Assembly: GCA_011390675.1 (NCBI GenBank) | Contig: JAABRX010000026.1 | Location: 1-38,432, forward strand | Source: Trueperaceae bacterium | Lineage (GTDB): Bacteria; Deinococcota; Deinococci; Deinococcales; Trueperaceae | DNA: 38,432 nt | Reading direction: 5' to 3' | Shown here: positions 458 through 34,933 of the stretch, in pieces | Layout of the letters: every line of letters starts with the position of its first letter | Position numbering within the stretch: position 1 is the stretch's first letter | Made by a program: the position numbers and the translations under genes | The notes under the pieces: model-generated | Told to the model about the DNA's origin: nothing | Databases searched by the model: none | What the model saw: only the letters and a program-made list of their open reading frames with translations

Positions 458-461
<4 letters not shown>

Positions 462-1348
462 CCGCGTTCGCGGCGCGCGTGCACGCGCGCGTCCGCGAGC
501 TCGACACGCGCGTGTGCCTGGGCATCGACCCGCGCCCGCACGGGCACCCCAGCACGCACCCGGCCGCGCACGATGGCGATCCGGCCAAGACGGCGCTCGC
601 CGTCGTCGCCTACGTCCGCACCGTGCTCGACGCGACCCACGACCGGATCGCCTGCGCCAAGCCGCAGAGCGCCTTCTTCGAGGCGCTCGGGGTGCCCGGC
701 GTGATCGCGCTCGCGCAGGTGCTGGCCGACCTGCGCGAGCGCGGCATCCCGGCGATCCTCGACGCCAAGCGCGGCGACATCGGCAGCACGGCCGAGGCCT
801 ACGCGGCCGCGTACCTCGCCGACGGCGTGTTCGCGGCGGACGCGCTCACCGTCAACGCCTACCTCGGCCTCGACACGCTGGAGCCCTTCCTGGACGCAGC
901 GGTCGCGGGCGAGCGCGGAGTGTTCGTGCTCGTGAAGACTTCGAACCCAGGGAGTGGCGACCTGCAGGACGTCGCCACCGACGACGGCCGGCGCGTCCAC
1001 GAGCGCTTGGCCGACGCCCTCGCTGCGCGCGCGGAGCAGCTTCCGGCTGATGCCGACGGCTACACCGCGCTCGGCGCGGTCGCCGGCGCCACCTACCCGG
1101 CCGAGCTGACCGCCCTCCGGGCGCGCATGCCGCGCTCGCTGCTGTTGGTACCCGGCTACGGAGCGCAAGGGGGTACGGGGGCCGACGCCGCCGGCGCGTT
1201 CGACGCAGCCGGGCTCGGCGCGGTCGTCAACGCCAGCCGGACGCTGCTCTACCCCACCGGCGGCGCCGACGTCGCCGCGGCGGCGCGCGCGGCCGCGACG
1301 GCGATGCGCGACGACCTCAACCGGGCGCTGGAAGCCCGAAGGTCTTAG
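458..1348 (+). CDS. pyrF: Orotidine 5'-phosphate decarboxylase (subfamily 2)
   Basis: It decarboxylates OMP to UMP, the last step of de novo pyrimidine synthesis, in the cytosol. The predicted protein has 296 residues, typical of the longer type-2 subfamily. LGIDPRPHG lies near the N-terminus. The catalytic lysine/aspartate cluster [10 protein letters not shown] falls at residues 102-111 (D102, K104, D107). The phosphate-binding [12 protein letters not shown] stretch and a C-terminal [13 protein letters not shown] motif complete the TIM barrel. I chose the GTG at 458 because it overlaps the secA TGA by four bases and the alignable sequence begins there; an upstream in-frame start would add residues encoded inside the secA zinc motif. 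The TAG stop at 1346-1348 is also part of a promoter-like TAGGCT box for the next gene. Confidence 0.95.
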
Positions 1349-1351
1349 GCT
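1346..1351 (+). promoter_or_regulatory. TANNNT leaderless-type -10 box
   Basis: TAGGCT ends 5 bases before the ATG at 1357. Its first three bases are the pyrF stop codon. There is no Shine-Dalgarno site between the box and the ATG, so a leaderless transcript starting at or next to the ATG is inferred. Confidence 0.6.
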
Positions 1352-1356
1352 GGACC

Positions 1357-2235
1357 ATGCCACTCGACCTCGGGGCCGTGAACGCCGTGAACGCCGTGCT
1401 GTTCGTACCGAACCAGGGCCCGTGGCGTGCGCGCGCCGCGTCGTGGCTCACGGGGCTCGATGCGGAGCCCGATGCCATCGACGCCTGGCTCGACATCCTC
1501 GGACGGCGCGCCGCCGGGGCCCACGATTGGCGCGACGAGCTCGCGGGCGCGACCTTCCCGGACGGCCGCGCGATGCCACCCGTGCGTCCGTACAACGACG
1601 CCCTGCAGCAGCTCGAGTCAGCGGACGCGGTGGTGCCCATGTGGTCACGCGATGCGCTCCCGTTCGCGCTCGACGTCTGGGGCCCGGGCGAGCGCGGCGG
1701 CGAGCCCGAAACGCTGGGGCTGGAGCTGCTCGTGCACCGCACCGTGTTGGAAGACAGCAGCGCCGTAGGCACCAGCCCCGATGCACGCGCCGAACGCCGA
1801 GCCGTGATCGGGGACGCCTTCGCCGCGCTGATGGCCGAGGCGTGCGAGGTCTTCGAACCGGTCTTCGCGCTCGCGGACGGGATGCAGCCGGTCTCGGACT
1901 TCCTCGCCCGCGCCACCCCGGAGCGCGTCCGCCACCCCGCACCCGGCGGCGCGCGCCTCGCCGACTACGCATGGGCGCTCGCCTACTGGTCGCCCGCGCG
2001 GCTCGACGAGGACCTGGCCGCCCGGCTCGCCCGCGTCGAGACCCCTCCCCTGCCGCGCGCACCATTGGTGCCGGACGGCGTCGACGTCTCGGTGCGAACT
2101 CTGGCGACCGGCGGCGCGTTCCTGCGGGCACGCCGCATCCTGGGCACGGAGACCCGCGGCTCGCGCGCGCGCCTCGAGACGCCGCTCGCCCACCAACTCG
2201 GCCTGCGCAGCAACCACCTGTTCTACAAGCGCTAG
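1357..2235 (+). CDS. Unrecognised 292-residue protein
   Basis: I do not recognise this family. The protein has no signal peptide or membrane segment and looks soluble: a mixed alpha/beta N-terminal part (NAVLFVPNQGPWRARAASW), a central segment with VHRTVLEDSS, an acidic helical stretch around residues 145-175 (AFAALMAEACEVFEPVFALADG), then YAWALAYWSPARLDEDLAARL. The C-terminus is basic and ends LRSNHLFYKR. No catalytic motif stands out. The ATG at 1357 is 8 bases after the pyrF stop, has no Shine-Dalgarno site, and sits 5 bases after a TAGGCT box, so the gene probably has its own leaderless promoter. Codon use matches the neighbours (GC-rich third positions), which supports it being a real gene. 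Its 3' end faces the secreted-protein gene on the other strand. Confidence 0.8.
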   Translation: MPLDLGAVNAVNAVLFVPNQGPWRARAASWLTGLDAEPDAIDAWLDILGRRAAGAHDWRDELAGATFPDGRAMPPVRPYNDALQQLESADAVVPMWSRDALPFALDVWGPGERGGEPETLGLELLVHRTVLEDSSAVGTSPDARAERRAVIGDAFAALMAEACEVFEPVFALADGMQPVSDFLARATPERVRHPAPGGARLADYAWALAYWSPARLDEDLAARLARVETPPLPRAPLVPDGVDVSVRTLATGGAFLRARRILGTETRGSRARLETPLAHQLGLRSNHLFYKR

Positions 2236-6222: not shown

Positions 6223-6228
6223 ATGCTA
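6223..6228 (-). promoter_or_regulatory. -10-like box for asp23-fakA, overlapping the DUF503 stop
   Basis: TAGCAT on the minus strand begins with the TAG stop codon of the DUF503 gene and lies 25 bases before the Asp23-family ATG, giving a leader of roughly 18 bases that holds the GAGGAGG ribosome site. It has no clear -35 partner. Confidence 0.45.
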
Positions 6229-15254: not shown

Positions 15255-17132
15255 GTGATCGACGCCCCGTTCGTCGCCGAGCACGCCGCGGTCCCCGAGC
15301 TCTTCGAGGACCGCGGCGCGCTCCTGCGGTTGCGGGTCCGCACCCGCGGACCCCGCCCTCTTCGCGCCTTCGTGCGCACCGAACCCGACCACGAAGAGCG
15401 CCTGACGGCGCTCGCCGCCGAGGGAGCGCCCGACGCGCGCGGCTGGACCACCTGGATCGCCGAGGTCGCGGTCGCCACCCACGACCCCGTCACCACCTAC
15501 GCCTTCCGCTTCGTGTTCGCCGACCGCCAGGCGTGGCTGGCCGCGGACGGGATGCATCCGGGCGAGCCCGACCCGACCGTCCACTTCCGGCACGCGGCCG
15601 GGCACGTGCCCGCCGAATGGGTCTGGGGCACGGTCTTCTACCAGGTCTTCCCCGAGCGCTTCCGCAACGGCGACCCGACGAACGACCCGCAGGACGGCGA
15701 TTGGTCGGTCGGCGGCGAGCCCATCGTGCGCCGCGCGTGGAGCGATCGTCCGACGCGCGGCATGGGGCCCCGCGAGTTCTTCGGCGGCGATCTGCAGGGC
15801 GTGCGCGACGGACTCGAGCACGTGACCGACCTCGGGGCGAACGCGCTGTACCTCAACCCCGTCTTCGTGAGCCCGAGCAGCCACAAGTACGACACGGTCG
15901 ACTACGCCCGCGTCGACCCCCACCTGGGCGGCGACGACGCGCTCCGTGCGCTCCTCGAGGACGCCCGCGGCCGCGGCGTCCGGGTGGTCCTCGACGCGGT
16001 CGTCAACCACACGAGCGAGCGCCATCCTTGGTTCGAGGAGGCTCGCACCAGCGTCGCCGCGGGTACGGCGACGGGCACCCGCGATCACTACGTGTTCCCC
16101 GAGCCGGCCGATCCGGACCGCTACGTCGGCTGGGCCGGCGTGCGCACGCTCCCGGTGCTCGACTTCGCGAGCGCCGGCGTGCGCGCCAAGGTGTACGAGG
16201 CGGACGACGCGATCCTGCGAAGCTGGTTGCGCCCCCCGTGGGCGATCGACGGGTGGCGGCTCGACGTGATCCACATGCTCGGCGAGGGCCCCGGGGCATC
16301 GCGCAACCACGACCACGTCGCCGCGATGCGCCGTGCGATCCGCGCGGAGCGCCCCGACGCCTACGTCCTGGGCGAGCACTTCTTCGACGCCACCGCTTGG
16401 CTTCAGGGGCACGAGGAGGACGGGGCCATGAACTACGCCGGCTTCCTTCGTCCGATGCTCGCCTTCTGGGCCGGGATCGACTTCCGCGGCGACCCGGAAC
16501 GCTGCGACGCGGCCGAGCTCGACCGACGGCTCACCCGGACGCGGGCGCGGCTGCCGTGGCCCATCGCGCTCTCCCAGTTCAACCTGCTCTCCTCGCACGA
16601 CGTCCCACGCTTCCTCACCCGCGTCGGCGGCGACGTCGAGGCGTTCCTCGCTGCCCACCACGCGCTCTTCGCGTACGTCGGGGTCCCGTGCGTCTACTAC
16701 GGCGACGAAGTCGGGCTCGAAGGGGGCGAGGACCCGGACAACCGCCGCCCCATGCCCTGGGCGCCGGGCGCCTGGAACCGCCGCGTGCATGCGACCGTCC
16801 GTCGGCTCGCGCATCTGCGGCGCCACCATCCCGCGCTCGCGCGCGGGCGCTATCGGACGCTCCTCGCCGAAGGCGACGCCTTCGCGTTCGCCCGCGAGTC
16901 GGGCGGCGAAGCGGTCGTCTGCGTACTGCACCGAACGGGCGGCTCGGTCCGACTGCCGATCGGCACCCTGGGCGTGGTGGGGTCCTGGACCGACGCGCTG
17001 ACCGGCGCCACCCTCGAGGACGACGGCGAGCACCTCGTCGTCGAACTCCCCGCCGGCCGCGCCGGGGCGCGCACGCTCGTCAGCCGCGCCGACCGCGTGG
17101 CCCAGCTACCGCCGCTGGAGATGCCGTCGTGA
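15255..17132 (+). CDS. GH13 alpha-glucosidase / maltodextrin glucosidase (MalZ-neopullulanase type)
   Basis: A 625-residue cytosolic-looking enzyme (no signal peptide) of glycoside hydrolase family 13. A beta-rich N-terminal domain (about 1-120) precedes the barrel, as in cyclomaltodextrinases and MalZ. FYQVFPERFRNGDPTNDP, KYDTVDYARVDPHLGG and LDAVVNHTSERHPWF are strongly MalZ/neopullulanase-like. The catalytic residues are the nucleophile Asp337 (GWRLDVIHM), the acid Glu374 (VLGEHFFD) and Asp449 (LLSSHDVPRF). The C-terminal beta domain ends about residue 620. It should hydrolyse short maltodextrins, complementing the glycogen phosphorylase encoded about 4 kb downstream. The exact substrate is not certain. 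Its stop overlaps the patatin start (GTGA). Confidence 0.92.
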   Translation: MIDAPFVAEHAAVPELFEDRGALLRLRVRTRGPRPLRAFVRTEPDHEERLTALAAEGAPDARGWTTWIAEVAVATHDPVTTYAFRFVFADRQAWLAADGMHPGEPDPTVHFRHAAGHVPAEWVWGTVFYQVFPERFRNGDPTNDPQDGDWSVGGEPIVRRAWSDRPTRGMGPREFFGGDLQGVRDGLEHVTDLGANALYLNPVFVSPSSHKYDTVDYARVDPHLGGDDALRALLEDARGRGVRVVLDAVVNHTSERHPWFEEARTSVAAGTATGTRDHYVFPEPADPDRYVGWAGVRTLPVLDFASAGVRAKVYEADDAILRSWLRPPWAIDGWRLDVIHMLGEGPGASRNHDHVAAMRRAIRAERPDAYVLGEHFFDATAWLQGHEEDGAMNYAGFLRPMLAFWAGIDFRGDPERCDAAELDRRLTRTRARLPWPIALSQFNLLSSHDVPRFLTRVGGDVEAFLAAHHALFAYVGVPCVYYGDEVGLEGGEDPDNRRPMPWAPGAWNRRVHATVRRLAHLRRHHPALARGRYRTLLAEGDAFAFARESGGEAVVCVLHRTGGSVRLPIGTLGVVGSWTDALTGATLEDDGEHLVVELPAGRAGARTLVSRADRVAQLPPLEMPS

Positions 17133-18172
17133 GCGCCGCGCGCCCCCTCGTCTCCAAGACCGAGTCGCCCCCCCACCCGGATCGGCACCGCATCGGCCTC
17201 GTCCTGTCCGGCGGCGGCGCCCGCGGCTTCGCCCACATCGGGCTGCTGCGCGTCCTCGAGCGCCACGGCGTCGAGGTCGACGTCGTCGCCGGCACGTCGA
17301 TGGGCGCGATCGTCGGCGCGCTCTACGCCCACGGGTACCGCGCCGACGACCTCCAGGAGCTCGCCGCGTCCGTCAGTTGGCGCGACGTCATCGACCTGTC
17401 GCTCCAGGCCGGGCTCCTCAAGGGCGAGAAGCTGCGGCAACTGCTCGCCACGTACCTACCGGAGACCTTCGACGAGCTCGCCAAGCCCCTGGCGGTGACG
17501 TGCACCGACCTCGAGAACGGTGAGGAGCTGACCTTCACGAGCGGCGACCTGATCACCGCCGTGCGCGCCTCCGCCTGCTTCCCGGGTGCCTTCGAACCGA
17601 TCGAGCACGAGGGGCGCACGCTGGCGGACGGCGGCATCTGCAACAACCTCCCGGTCGACGCGCTGGCGCTGATGCGCGCCGAGATCACGATCGCCTCGGA
17701 CGTCACAGCAATGCGGCGCGCCGGGTTCGTGCACCCCGACGCGGACCGGGCGTCGTGGTGGTCGCGGATGGTGGCGACCGTGACGCTCGAGCGGCGCACC
17801 CCGCTCGCGACGGTCACGCTCCGTTCGACCGACATCATGATGCGGCTCCTCACCGACACCCGCTACGTTCACCACCCGGCCGATCTGCGGGTCCAGCACG
17901 ACCTTCCCGAGGTCCGCCTCGAGTCGTTCTGGGACCTCGACGCGATCGTCGCCAAGGGCGAGACGAACGCGGAGGCGGCGTTTCGCGCGGAACCCGCGCT
18001 CCTGCGGAAGCTGCAATCGAGCACGGGCGCGCCGGGCGCGGGCCGCCCGCTGCCGGACCCGGACACCGACGCGAGCGACGAGACCGGGCGCGACGCCAAC
18101 GCGCGCGGCGCGCGCCTCGCCGCGAGCGCGACGCGGTCCACGGCCACGCGAGCGAAACGGCGCCGGGGGTAG
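17129..18172 (+). CDS. Patatin-like phospholipase
   Basis: A 347-residue protein of the bacterial patatin / RssA-YchK-like family. The oxyanion motif GGGARGFAHIGLLRVLE is at about residues 29-45, the nucleophile elbow GTSMGAIVGALY holds Ser57, and the catalytic Asp167 is in LADGGICNNLP, so the Ser-Asp dyad is intact. The domain ends near residue 300. A low-complexity, Asp/Arg-rich tail (about 310-347) is probably disordered. Patatins hydrolyse acyl esters of lipids; the true substrate is unknown. The GTG start overlaps the GH13 stop codon. The TAG stop is the start of the TAGACT box of the signal peptidase gene. Confidence 0.93.
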   Translation: MSAARPLVSKTESPPHPDRHRIGLVLSGGGARGFAHIGLLRVLERHGVEVDVVAGTSMGAIVGALYAHGYRADDLQELAASVSWRDVIDLSLQAGLLKGEKLRQLLATYLPETFDELAKPLAVTCTDLENGEELTFTSGDLITAVRASACFPGAFEPIEHEGRTLADGGICNNLPVDALALMRAEITIASDVTAMRRAGFVHPDADRASWWSRMVATVTLERRTPLATVTLRSTDIMMRLLTDTRYVHHPADLRVQHDLPEVRLESFWDLDAIVAKGETNAEAAFRAEPALLRKLQSSTGAPGAGRPLPDPDTDASDETGRDANARGARLAASATRSTATRAKRRRG

Positions 18173-18175
18173 ACT
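18170..18175 (+). promoter_or_regulatory. TANNNT -10 box fused to the patatin stop codon
   Basis: TAGACT ends 7 bases before the lepB ATG at 18183. Bases 18170-18172 are the patatin TAG stop codon. No ribosome site lies between, so a leaderless lepB transcript is inferred. Confidence 0.65.
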
Positions 18176-18182
18176 GCCCGCC

Positions 18183-19148
18183 ATGGCCGAACCCTCGCGT
18201 CCCCACGCGCCTTCTCGCTCCCCGCGCAGCTCGCGCACCGAACCCGCACCGACTTTCGGCCAACGCGTATGGACCGAAGTGCGCGGGTACGCCGAGGCGC
18301 TGGTCATCGCCTTCGTGGTGGTCACCTTCGTCTTCAACACCGTCGGCGTCGTCGGCAGCTCCATGCGACCCAACCTCAACGGCGGCGTCGGCAGCAGCAA
18401 CCTGTTGCAGTCGCTCCTGACCGGCGACCGCGTGTTCATCCCCAAGTACGAGACCTGGCTGCGCCGCGCGGGGCTCCTCGGGCCGTACCGGCGCGGCGAC
18501 ATCGTGGTGGTGCGCGACCCTGCGAACTCCCCCACGGCGCTCGAGACCGACACCCGCCCGTTCTTCATCAAGCGCGTGGTCGGCATCCCGGGCGACCACC
18601 TGCGCATCGAAGCCGGACAAGTGGTGGTCAACGGCCATCCGATCGATCAGAGCTTCATCGAGGGCACGGGCGAGATCACCGCCGACCGGCAGGACTTCCC
18701 GGTGATCACCACGCGCGACGGCGAGCTCGAAGGGCTCGTCGTGCGCTTCGCGACCACGCCATCGGGCACGCCCGCCCCCGACCTGCCCGTCGCCGGCTTC
18801 TACCCGCCGGCGCTGCCCATCGGGGACCCACGGGTACAGCTGTACTACGGCCTCACGCTCGACTCGTTGGCGCCGGTGCCCGCCGACGCGGTCGACGGGG
18901 AGCCCTTCGTCCACGAGCTGATCCTGCCGGACGGCTACTACTTCCTCATGGGCGACAACCGGCAGCGAGCGCGCGGCGGCAGCGAAGACTCGCGCCTGTT
19001 CGGGCCGGTGCCGCTGATGTCGATCGCCGGCAAGGCCAGCGCCATCATCTGGCCGCCCAGGCGCGACGGCGAATGGAACTGGCGCGCGCTGCGGCCGCCG
19101 GCCGCGTTCGCCGAGGTTCCCGACCCGTCCGGCGTGGACGACCGCTGA
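18183..19148 (+). CDS. lepB: Signal peptidase I (first copy)
   Basis: LepB cleaves signal peptides from exported proteins at the outer face of the cytoplasmic membrane. This 321-residue protein has a polar N-terminal tail of ~35 residues, one membrane anchor (ALVIAFVVVTFVFNTVGV) and the catalytic Ser60 in GSSMRPNL. The general-base Lys130 lies in FFIKRVVGIPGD, and the C-terminal box is MGDNRQRARGGSEDSRLFGPV. It is longer than the second copy because of inserts after Ser60 (NGGVGSSNLLQSLL) and between the catalytic boxes (about 165-250). The start is fixed by the TAGACT box 7 bases upstream. The second signal peptidase follows after 5 bases. Confidence 0.95.
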   Translation: MAEPSRPHAPSRSPRSSRTEPAPTFGQRVWTEVRGYAEALVIAFVVVTFVFNTVGVVGSSMRPNLNGGVGSSNLLQSLLTGDRVFIPKYETWLRRAGLLGPYRRGDIVVVRDPANSPTALETDTRPFFIKRVVGIPGDHLRIEAGQVVVNGHPIDQSFIEGTGEITADRQDFPVITTRDGELEGLVVRFATTPSGTPAPDLPVAGFYPPALPIGDPRVQLYYGLTLDSLAPVPADAVDGEPFVHELILPDGYYFLMGDNRQRARGGSEDSRLFGPVPLMSIAGKASAIIWPPRRDGEWNWRALRPPAAFAEVPDPSGVDDR

Positions 19149-19153
19149 GCGAC

Positions 19154-19768
19154 GTGCCCGCCAGGACCGCCCCGCAGCCGACGGGCGGCGTCGCGGTCCA
19201 GCTCCTGCGCACGGCCGTCGTGCTGCTGCTCGGGGTGGCGACCGCGGTGTTCGTCGTCACGACCGTGGGCATCGAGGGCGACTCGATGGCGCCGACCCTA
19301 CACGACGGGGAGCGCGCGTTGGTGCCGCGCTACGAGACCTGGTGGCTGCGCGCCACGGGGCGCACCTGGTCGCCCGGCGACGTCGTGTACTTTCGACCAC
19401 CCGGCACGGCCCAGACGTCATGGGTCGATCGCGTGACCGGCGGGCCCTTCCTGATCAAGCGGGTCGCCGCCACCGCGGGCGCGACGATCGGGATCGAACG
19501 CGGTCGCCTGGTCGTGGACGGTTCCTTGGTCGACGAGCCGTACCTCGCCGGCACGCGGGTGCCTCCGACCGGCCTCCCGACCCAGACCGTGCCGGTCGAG
19601 AGCGTGTTCGTGCTGGGCGACAACCGCTCGCCGCTGGCGTCGCGCGACTCGCGCGCCTTCGGCGCCGTGCCGCTCGACCAGGTGGCGGGCCGTGCCGCAT
19701 GGGTCGTGTGGCCCCCGTTCCGGCGCTCGTCCGACGGGAACTGGGCGTGGAACGTGCGGCGGCTCTGA
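19154..19768 (+). CDS. lepB: Signal peptidase I (second copy)
   Basis: A second signal peptidase I, 204 residues, directly behind the first. It has an N-terminal anchor (LLRTAVVLLLGVATAVFVVTTVGI), catalytic Ser44 in GDSMAPTL, Lys102 in FLIKRVAATAGATIG and the closing box LGDNRSPLASRDSRAFGAV. It shares with its neighbour an unusual segment after the serine box (VPRYETWWLRATGR versus IPKYETWLRRAGLL), which argues for tandem duplication followed by divergence. The lysine box lacks the usual GxPGD (it reads ATAGAT), so substrate range may differ. The GTG start at 19154 is 5 bases after the first copy's stop; there is no separate promoter, so co-transcription is likely. Confidence 0.92.
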   Translation: MPARTAPQPTGGVAVQLLRTAVVLLLGVATAVFVVTTVGIEGDSMAPTLHDGERALVPRYETWWLRATGRTWSPGDVVYFRPPGTAQTSWVDRVTGGPFLIKRVAATAGATIGIERGRLVVDGSLVDEPYLAGTRVPPTGLPTQTVPVESVFVLGDNRSPLASRDSRAFGAVPLDQVAGRAAWVVWPPFRRSSDGNWAWNVRRL

Positions 19769-24865: not shown

Positions 24866-25968
24866 AGGGGGCGCAGCGCGCCGGTATCGAGGTCGAGCTC
24901 GAACCAGCCCTCGTCGGGGACCGCGCGCAACCAACGCCGGACGGTGCCCGCGGTCACGACCTCGATCGTCCGAAGACCTGGGTCCGGCAGCGCGTAGCCG
25001 TCGCCCTGCGGCACCCCGTCGACGAAGAGCCGCACCGGTCGATCCGTGCGCCAGACGATCAGCGGGTCGCCGAGCGCCTCGAGCTCGAGCTCGACGCGCG
25101 TCACCCGGAAGCCGCGCACGGGCGCCGTCGCGGTGCGCGGTTCGAACCCGGGCCGGCGCACCGTCACCTCGCGCGCGCCGGGCGCCGCGTCGATCGTGAG
25201 CGGCGAGCGACCGACCGGCGCGCCGTCGACGAACACGTCGGCCGGTGGCGTCGCCACCACCTGCAGGCTCCCTCCGACGATCGCCGTCATCTCGACGTGC
25301 AGGAAGCGGGTGTCGCCTCCGCGCAGGTCGAGGGTGCGCACCTCGGGAAGGTACCCCTCGAGGCGCAGCTCCACCTCGTAGCGCCCTGGAGCGAGCCCCA
25401 ACAGGTCGACGGCCCCGGAGCGGCCCACGGCGACGCCGTCGACGCGCACCTCGGCCCCACGCGGCTCGCTGGACACGAACAGCCCCGCGTCGCCCGGCGG
25501 CAGCGCCGGTCCCGACGCCGTGAACTCGGCGAGCACCGCCGCGACCTCGTCCGCGACCGCGTTCAAGGTGGCGAGGCCGAACCCGCGCGAGAGCAGGTCG
25601 GACGCACGCCCCTCGAGCGCGTCCACCGCCAGCAGGTCGACCGCGAAGGGGCCGTCGACGGCGGCGCGCGCGACGATCTCGCCGGACACCGCGAACCGCG
25701 TGCCCTCCAACTGGGCGATCAACACCGCGAAGTCGGGCTCGAGGCTCCCGGCGATGCCGGCCGTGATCAGGGGTGCCGAAGTCACCCGCTGGCCCCGCTC
25801 CGCCAGAGCCGAGCGCAACGCCTCGACGAAACGCCCGGCGATCTCCGGAGCGACCGCCTCGCGCGCGGGCAGGTCCGGGATCGCGAACCCCTCGGCGCGC
25901 ACCGGCGCGGGCAGCAACGCCAGCGCGAGCGCGATCCCAACCGCCACCAGCCGGCTCCAACGAATCAT
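24856..25968 (-). CDS. Exported PEGA-domain protein
   Basis: A 370-residue precursor with a signal peptide (VAVGIALALALLPAPVRA, cleavage before EGF). The first ~135 mature residues form an alpha/beta domain of unknown type (RFVEALRSALAERGQRV, then FAVLIAQLEGTRFAVSGEI), similar in layout to the N-terminal domain of curli-assembly CsgG-like or TolB-like proteins; that comparison is weak. Then come two PEGA beta domains (VSSEPRGAEVRVDGVAVGRS and VVATPPADVFVDGAPVGRSP) and a diverged third (RTDRPVRLFVDGVPQGDG). PEGA domains usually attach proteins to the envelope or surface layer. The ATG at 25968 is 7 bases after TAGACT. A divergent phosphoesterase gene starts 91 bases away. Confidence 0.88.
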   Translation of the reverse strand: MIRWSRLVAVGIALALALLPAPVRAEGFAIPDLPAREAVAPEIAGRFVEALRSALAERGQRVTSAPLITAGIAGSLEPDFAVLIAQLEGTRFAVSGEIVARAAVDGPFAVDLLAVDALEGRASDLLSRGFGLATLNAVADEVAAVLAEFTASGPALPPGDAGLFVSSEPRGAEVRVDGVAVGRSGAVDLLGLAPGRYEVELRLEGYLPEVRTLDLRGGDTRFLHVEMTAIVGGSLQVVATPPADVFVDGAPVGRSPLTIDAAPGAREVTVRRPGFEPRTATAPVRGFRVTRVELELEALGDPLIVWRTDRPVRLFVDGVPQGDGYALPDPGLRTIEVVTAGTVRRWLRAVPDEGWFELDLDTGALRPLMP

Positions 25969-25975
25969 CGTCGTC

Positions 25976-25981
25976 AGTCTA
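25976..25981 (-). promoter_or_regulatory. TANNNT leaderless-type -10 box
   Basis: TAGACT on the minus strand ends 7 bases before the PEGA-protein ATG at 25968. Confidence 0.6.
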
Positions 25982-34857: not shown

Positions 34858-34933
34858 TGGCGGAGCCGACGGGATTTGAACCCGCGACCTTCTGCGTGAC
34901 AGGCAGATATGCTAACCGCTACACTACGGCTCC
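34858..34933 (-). tRNA. tRNA-Asp (anticodon GTC)
   Basis: A complete 76-base cloverleaf with encoded CCA. The acceptor stem pairs GGAGCCG with CGGCTCC followed by the G discriminator. The D arm is TAGTGTAGCGGTTAGCA-like. The anticodon arm TCTGC/GCAGA encloses CTGTCAC, giving anticodon GTC for GAC/GAU. The T arm CGCGGGTTCAAATCCCG is canonical. A G discriminator is an expected identity element for aspartate. Confidence 0.97.

Follow-up and report, generated by a model that had tools for sequence, protein, structure and literature searches.

A putative leaderless −10 box of lepB that supplies the stop codon of the upstream patatin gene in Trueperaceae

In the 38,432 bp of DNA from a Trueperaceae bacterium analysed here (contig JAABRX010000026.1 of assembly GCA_011390675.1; the whole stretch is called the window), the hexamer TAGACT at position 18170 is very probably, judging from sequence and conservation, the leaderless −10 element of lepB. 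It would be the conserved and primary feature of the junction, and would also supply the stop codon of the patatin-like gene upstream. In samples from three genomes of the family, the sharing of a stop codon with a −10 box is real, is far above chance, and is concentrated at one spacing.

Materials and Methods

The genome to which the window belongs (G000; 3.49 Mb) is 79% complete and has 73% GC in its sampled part; the window is its contig C72. Counts were made on 2.3 Mb in total, comprising 1.12 Mb of G000, 0.80 Mb of its congener G004 and 0.40 Mb of G008, another member of the family, in which 1016, 724 and 347 genes, respectively, were called. The caller was a home-made coding model without upstream signals, and gene starts were checked by inspection only. 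Two rows that duplicated contig stretches (L001 and L002) were left out. Junction offsets were taken for co-directional pairs and run from the upstream stop's first base to an ATG in the downstream gene's frame.

For the lepB junction, 14 loci (L063–L076) were used among 43 found; the other 29, from other phyla, were left out, and the lepB junctions of G008, G010, G015 and G022 lie outside the examined set. Twelve of the 43 loci had best-segment identities of 58–83%, and all twelve are from Trueperaceae, the closest lepB relatives. The samples contain 26 junctions that share a stop with a box; seven distinct ones have an orthologue in another of the sampled genomes, giving 13 comparisons with reciprocals counted twice.

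Results

The patatin–lepB junction

According to the available text of two published accounts, leaderless genes in Deinococcota are driven by a lone −10 motif, TANNNT, which sits about 6–7 bp ahead of the ORF (PMC12340547; PMC3160421); the same text of the first reports that box function was shown in Deinococcus radiodurans, with bases 1, 2 and 6 being essential (PMC12340547). In the window, a patatin-like phospholipase gene (17129–18172, plus strand; gene caller; Pfam PF01734 Patatin, E 3.6e-39) ends, as read from the sequence, with a TAG at 18170–18172. Just as the earlier note had claimed, this TAG is the first half of TAGACT (18170–18175, plus strand), and a 7-base spacer (18176–18182) separates the hexamer from the ATG (18183–18185) of lepB, the gene for signal peptidase I (Peptidase_S26; 18183–19148, plus strand; Pfam PF10502, E 5.1e-32). 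TAGACT has the TANNNT form of the Deinococcota leaderless promoters, the 7 bp that separate it from the ATG agree with their spacing of about 6–7 bp, and, as expected of a leaderless gene, no Shine-Dalgarno (SD)-like word lies between box and ATG. Because this spacing matches the one given for D. radiodurans in the available part of PMC12340547, transcription of lepB may well start at or next to its ATG. The coding-only gene caller set the lepB start at 18279, not at the boxed ATG. The lepB gene is the first of two tandem Peptidase_S26 genes, the second (19154–19768) following after 5 bases, and in several relatives a second S26 match is also found after lepB. The window further carries a tRNA-Asp (GTC) on the minus strand (34858–34933).

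A TANNNT box was present in all 13 Trueperaceae lepB junctions examined, i.e., the window and 12 other loci, although these are not independent, since several are from close relatives and L064 is apparently G004's own contig. The box sits 13 bases (once 12) before the ATG and takes the forms TAGACT, TACACT and TAGGCT. In 12 of the 13 junctions, one of these by inference, the stop of the upstream gene is on the box, being TAG in six and TGA in six. The TAG stands at the front of the box in the window and in L063, L064, L065, L066 and L074, its use in L063 being presumed from a contig that ends inside the upstream frame. The TGA starts with the box's final base in L068–L071 and L073, where patatin is upstream, and in L072 (2982), a locus with no patatin match in which an alpha-amylase gene runs into the lepB box and ends on the TGA. 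In L067 the upstream stop is about 40 bases ahead of the box, not on it. No box was found at lepB in the two outgroup loci, L075 (Calidithermus) and L076 (Deinococcales). The lepB tree, many forks of which are weakly supported, requires two changes for each stop mode. The two genes lie apart in G008, with the patatin homologue on contig C24 and lepB on contig C99, and so the patatin–lepB junction is absent there.

Other boxes in the window

Two further junctions of the window had been put forward as having the same arrangement. One of them bears this out: pyrF (OMP decarboxylase, OMPdecase; 458–1348, plus strand; Pfam PF00215, E 5.7e-30) ends with a TAG (1346–1348) inside the candidate −10 box TAGGCT (1346–1351, plus strand), and 5 bases on, a spacer slightly short of the usual 6–7 bp, is the ATG of a gene at 1357–2235 (plus strand; gene caller; no Pfam match). 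The pyrF junction was counted among the shared junctions. The gene at 1357 has no match in the compared genomes, and the sole pyrF match, in G008, ends with TAG in a convergent overlap.

The DUF503/asp23 junction, which is on the minus strand, proved to be of a different kind. Its −10-like box, TAGCAT (6228–6223), holds the DUF503 stop TAG (6228–6226) and overlaps an ATG at 6224; a further in-frame ATG (6197–6195), the likely asp23 start, stands behind the SD motif AGGAGG (6209–6204). Given this second ATG after AGGAGG, the gap between the genes is likely 28 bases and includes a leader, and the asp23 promoter is probably leadered, not leaderless. Sixteen bases lie between the DUF503 stop and AGGAGG, i.e., the stop is not inside the SD motif. 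The same layout occurs in G004 (L138), where TAGCAT and AGGAGG are retained and DUF503 ends with TGA 29 bases ahead of the box; in G008, the stretch ahead of asp23 showed no TAGCAT. The window's second TAGACT box-plus-ATG, TAGACTGACGACGATG (25966–25981, minus strand), identified from sequence, gene caller and Pfam, precedes a PEGA-domain gene. There the neighbouring gene is divergent and no stop is shared.

Boxes ahead of gene starts

In the window's own genome, TAGACT followed after 4–10 bases by ATG occurs 52 times, versus 5 times for the reversed pattern. When 41 genomes (this one and 40 relatives) were searched, the pattern was matched in all of them, with a strong excess in many and near or below the control level in some, e.g., G005, G014 and G033. 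In the three sampled genomes, 309 of 1942 starts have TANNNT 11–14 bases ahead of an in-frame ATG, namely 152 of the 1336 co-directional starts and 157 of the 606 divergent ones. Only 3–25 co-directional and 4–35 divergent boxes (9–60 combined) were counted in any of eight other 4-base registers, and the reversed motif at 11–14 was found at 35 co-directional and 44 divergent starts (79). SD-like words were near 12 of the 309 boxed ATG starts versus 454 of 845 unboxed ones, a scarcity that is partly forced, since the box occupies part of the scanned stretch; four of the 21 shared junctions do contain an SD-like word. A scan for the −35 sequence TTGAC gave values near the control-distance level in four of five groups and no clear −35 signal, the only excess being for boxes far from a co-directional gene (16 vs 7 of 54, allowing two or fewer mismatches). 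Sequence and spacing support the view that TAGACT behaves as a promoter −10 box. The second base ahead of the box is G in 71% of the 157 divergent boxed starts of G000, G004 and G008, which is perhaps an extended −10 feature.

Stop codons on the box

Across the three genomes, an upstream stop begins precisely at the first base of a box in 21 cases, as against about 1.1 per position over the 55 positions upstream. At offset 11–14 the stops were TAG in 22 cases, TAA in 5 and TGA in 17 (n = 44; TAG 50%). Elsewhere TAG was used in 2 of 42 cases at offset 5–10, 1 of 18 at 16–20, 9 of 75 at 21–38, and 22 of 158 at 39–79. TAG differed from TGA in its use of the 11–14 register (Fisher p 1e-12), and the TAG share in that register differed from the share at convergent gene ends (153 of 616; p 6e-4). 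The earlier note had further asked whether the hexamer begun by such a TAG ends in T; this was so for 18 of the 22 TAG stops at 11–14, which read TAGNNT, and four were without the final T. The corresponding counts were 1 of 17 for TGA stops at that offset and 11 of 153 for convergent TAG stops. By genome (G000, G004 and G008, respectively), the TAG counts were 10, 10 and 2, and the TAGNNT counts were 8, 9 and 1; G008 alone adds little.

The broader proposal, that TAG stops are favoured wherever a promoter must fit into a short gap, thus stood at offset 11–14 and did not extend to the whole class of 8–35 base gaps. In that class TAG made up 38 of 224 stops (17.0%, called starts), compared to 24.8% of the convergent ends, i.e., there was no enrichment. 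When the comparison was repeated with in-frame ATGs (offsets 11–38), the TAG share was 33 of 142 (23%), again not different from convergent ends (p 0.75). Convergent ends are themselves TAG-rich, in part because of 4-base overlaps. In these overlaps (L003–L062 and L106–L185), the palindrome CTAG mostly provides both stops, and 28 of the 32 stops counted read CTAG.

A second mode of sharing, which the earlier note does not mention, was found at position +5 of the box, with a TGA stop whose first base is the final T of the −10 box (TANNNTGA). This sequence accounted for 5 of the 26 TGA stops with an ATG at offset 6–9; at convergent ends it accounted for none of 450 TGA stops, and at other offsets for 1 of 194. 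The form TAGNNTGA closes two frames at once.

In the orthologue comparisons, three junctions were shared in both G000 and G004, a result that could also reflect selection for keeping the sharing. For three others (L133, L138-6790 and L171-4151), the orthologues keep the box without sharing the stop; their upstream stop is 43–77 bases away, or the neighbouring gene is divergent. In two of the 13 comparisons there was no box. As boxes are kept where no stop makes use of them, the promoter element can be conserved regardless of stop sharing, though not everywhere. At L138 in G004, an alpha-amylase/patatin junction also has a shared box (TAGACTGA), where G000 has a GTGA overlap and no box.

Promoter and stop codon choice

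TAG-type boxes made up 74 of 157 boxes at divergent starts, 34 of 61 near a co-directional gene, and 23 of 54 far from one. An over-use of TAG boxes beside co-directional genes was not supported (p 0.29 and 0.64 vs divergent starts). The number of upstream frames that end on a box was compared with a trap null, in which a random frame that reaches a stop-containing box ends there one third of the time. By 60 bases beyond the start, a stop has been reached in just 27% of the out-of-frame cases, the median distance being about 450 bases, and with the longer overlaps removed the expected on-box share is 0.65 (hand calculation). The observed share was 21 of 29, compared to the null of 0.65 (p 0.44); the null includes the caller's 60-base overlap limit, and n = 29 gives little power. 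Since the on-box share fits the trap null, sharing can follow from the box being among the few available stops, and extra selection for TAG is probably unneeded. The suggestion that stop codon choice is tied to the promoter survives in that stop and box are shared, and a special preference for TAG is not needed to account for it.

Discussion

We propose that, at these junctions, the promoter box comes first and is what is conserved, and that the upstream stop would be secondary to it. At 18170, TAGACT would start lepB transcription at or beside the ATG. A box holds TAG or TAA, and sometimes TGA over its last base (TANNNTGA), and so offers a ready-made stop in one or two frames; in GC-rich DNA, where out-of-frame stops would otherwise be far off, the box may then act as the stop. 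An upstream frame that drifted or was shortened into the box would end there, and this capture would set the stop codon. Capture would also allow tight packing, with the private promoter of the following gene fitted into a gap of 8–11 bases (3–6 in the TGA mode), and the earlier suggestion that such boxes give downstream genes private promoters inside gene runs is a reasonable reading.

A rival account is that TAG rather than TGA is actively favoured on the box, either because sharing saves bases or because it insulates the leaderless start from upstream ribosomes. The preponderance of TAG at offset 11–14 (22 of 44, compared with nearby shares of 2 of 42 and 1 of 18) is what such selection would produce, as are the junctions shared alike in G000 and G004 and the 12 of 13 lepB stops on the box (one inferred), reached with two stop codons and two different upstream genes. 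We nevertheless consider this account unlikely: the on-box share is not significantly above the trap null, TAG boxes are not significantly commoner beside co-directional than beside divergent genes, and the 8–35 class as a whole lacks a TAG excess over convergent ends. That the −10 box is a dual element for transcription start and translation stop, held under joint selection in leaderless GC-rich genomes, is put forward with considerable doubt. If it were true, TAGNNT and TANNNTGA would serve to close upstream frames, TAGNNTGA two at a time, thereby fixing the stop codon of the junction, and such boxes would shield the 5′ end of the following leaderless message from ribosomes.

The two remaining accounts do without a promoter. 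In translational coupling, the short gap would let a ribosome that ends patatin re-initiate at lepB; patatin stop and lepB start are indeed close together, and starts that overlap a TGA (ATGA) are very common in the sampled genomes, with 143 ATG cases. Coupling does not, however, predict the T at the sixth base (18 of 22), the strict 11–14 register, or the presence of the same box at 157 of 606 divergent starts, and on these grounds we rejected pure coupling, which seems to us highly improbable. That a TAG stop and a six-base word overlap by chance alone is more improbable still, to the point of being negligible. Single cases such as asp23, which is leadered, could be accidental, but as a general account chance is rejected by the 52 occurrences of TAGACT-N4-10-ATG versus 5 of the reversed pattern, by the 21 stops on the box where 1.1 are expected per position, and by the conservation of the box at lepB. 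The reading we prefer remains that of a leaderless −10 box that captures the upstream stop.

These junctions offer a countable case in which a neighbouring promoter, not release factors or GC content, would set the choice of stop codon. TAG and TGA usage statistics in leaderless GC-rich bacteria may carry a promoter signal. As an aid to annotation, a TAGNNT stop 11–14 bases before an in-frame ATG, or an TANNNTGA stop 6–9 bases before one, would indicate where the next leaderless gene starts.

Sharing of a stop codon with a −10 box was not found in the literature searched, a body of text in which subscription journals were mostly not included; in particular, the available portions of PMC12340547, PMC3160421, PMC6319747, PMC2784483, PMC6728331, PMC4633059, PMC8079986 and PMC10653884 contain no case of it. 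Leaderless genes of Actinomycetota, as described in the accessible parts of PMC4633059 and PMC8079986, have the same kind of box, TANNNT, and the same layout as here, and those parts do not mention the sharing of box and stop. In small samples of our own, 650 kb of Nonomuraea had TAGNNT at both of its two TAG stops at offset 11–14, with two stops at position 0 and two at +5 of a box, and a 100 kb Allomeiothermus plasmid with repeats had TAGNNT at none of its three TAG stops at 11–14. Boxes were rare on this plasmid, again a small sample: one of its 47 co-directional starts had a box, as did one of its 18 divergent starts.

The nearest printed precedent, as far as the available text of PMC2784483 goes, concerns stop codons adapted to the SD motif with which they overlap. 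There, as here, the choice of the upstream stop shifts where it doubles as a start signal of the downstream gene, and the spacing is narrow. In the portion of that paper available, the signal is translational, namely the SD motif, with a spacing of 5–8 bp and with TGA or TAG as the stop; here, in contrast, the signal is a −10 box, and the gap is 8–11 bp with TAG at the front of the box and 3–6 bp with TGA at its end. The lepB junction does not belong to the SD type, as no SD-like word follows the box in which the stop could lie.

The closest relative of the box itself is the leaderless −10 motif of Deinococcus-Thermus, which, in the available text of PMC12340547 and PMC3160421, resembles the present one in being TANNNT about 6–7 bp before the ORF, at many genes and in the same phylum. 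The main texts of these two papers do not contain the term "stop codon" at all. The present case differs from theirs in that the box doubles as the upstream stop and in that the family is Trueperaceae. In sum, the simplest view is that the sharing is a side effect of a known promoter type of the phylum.
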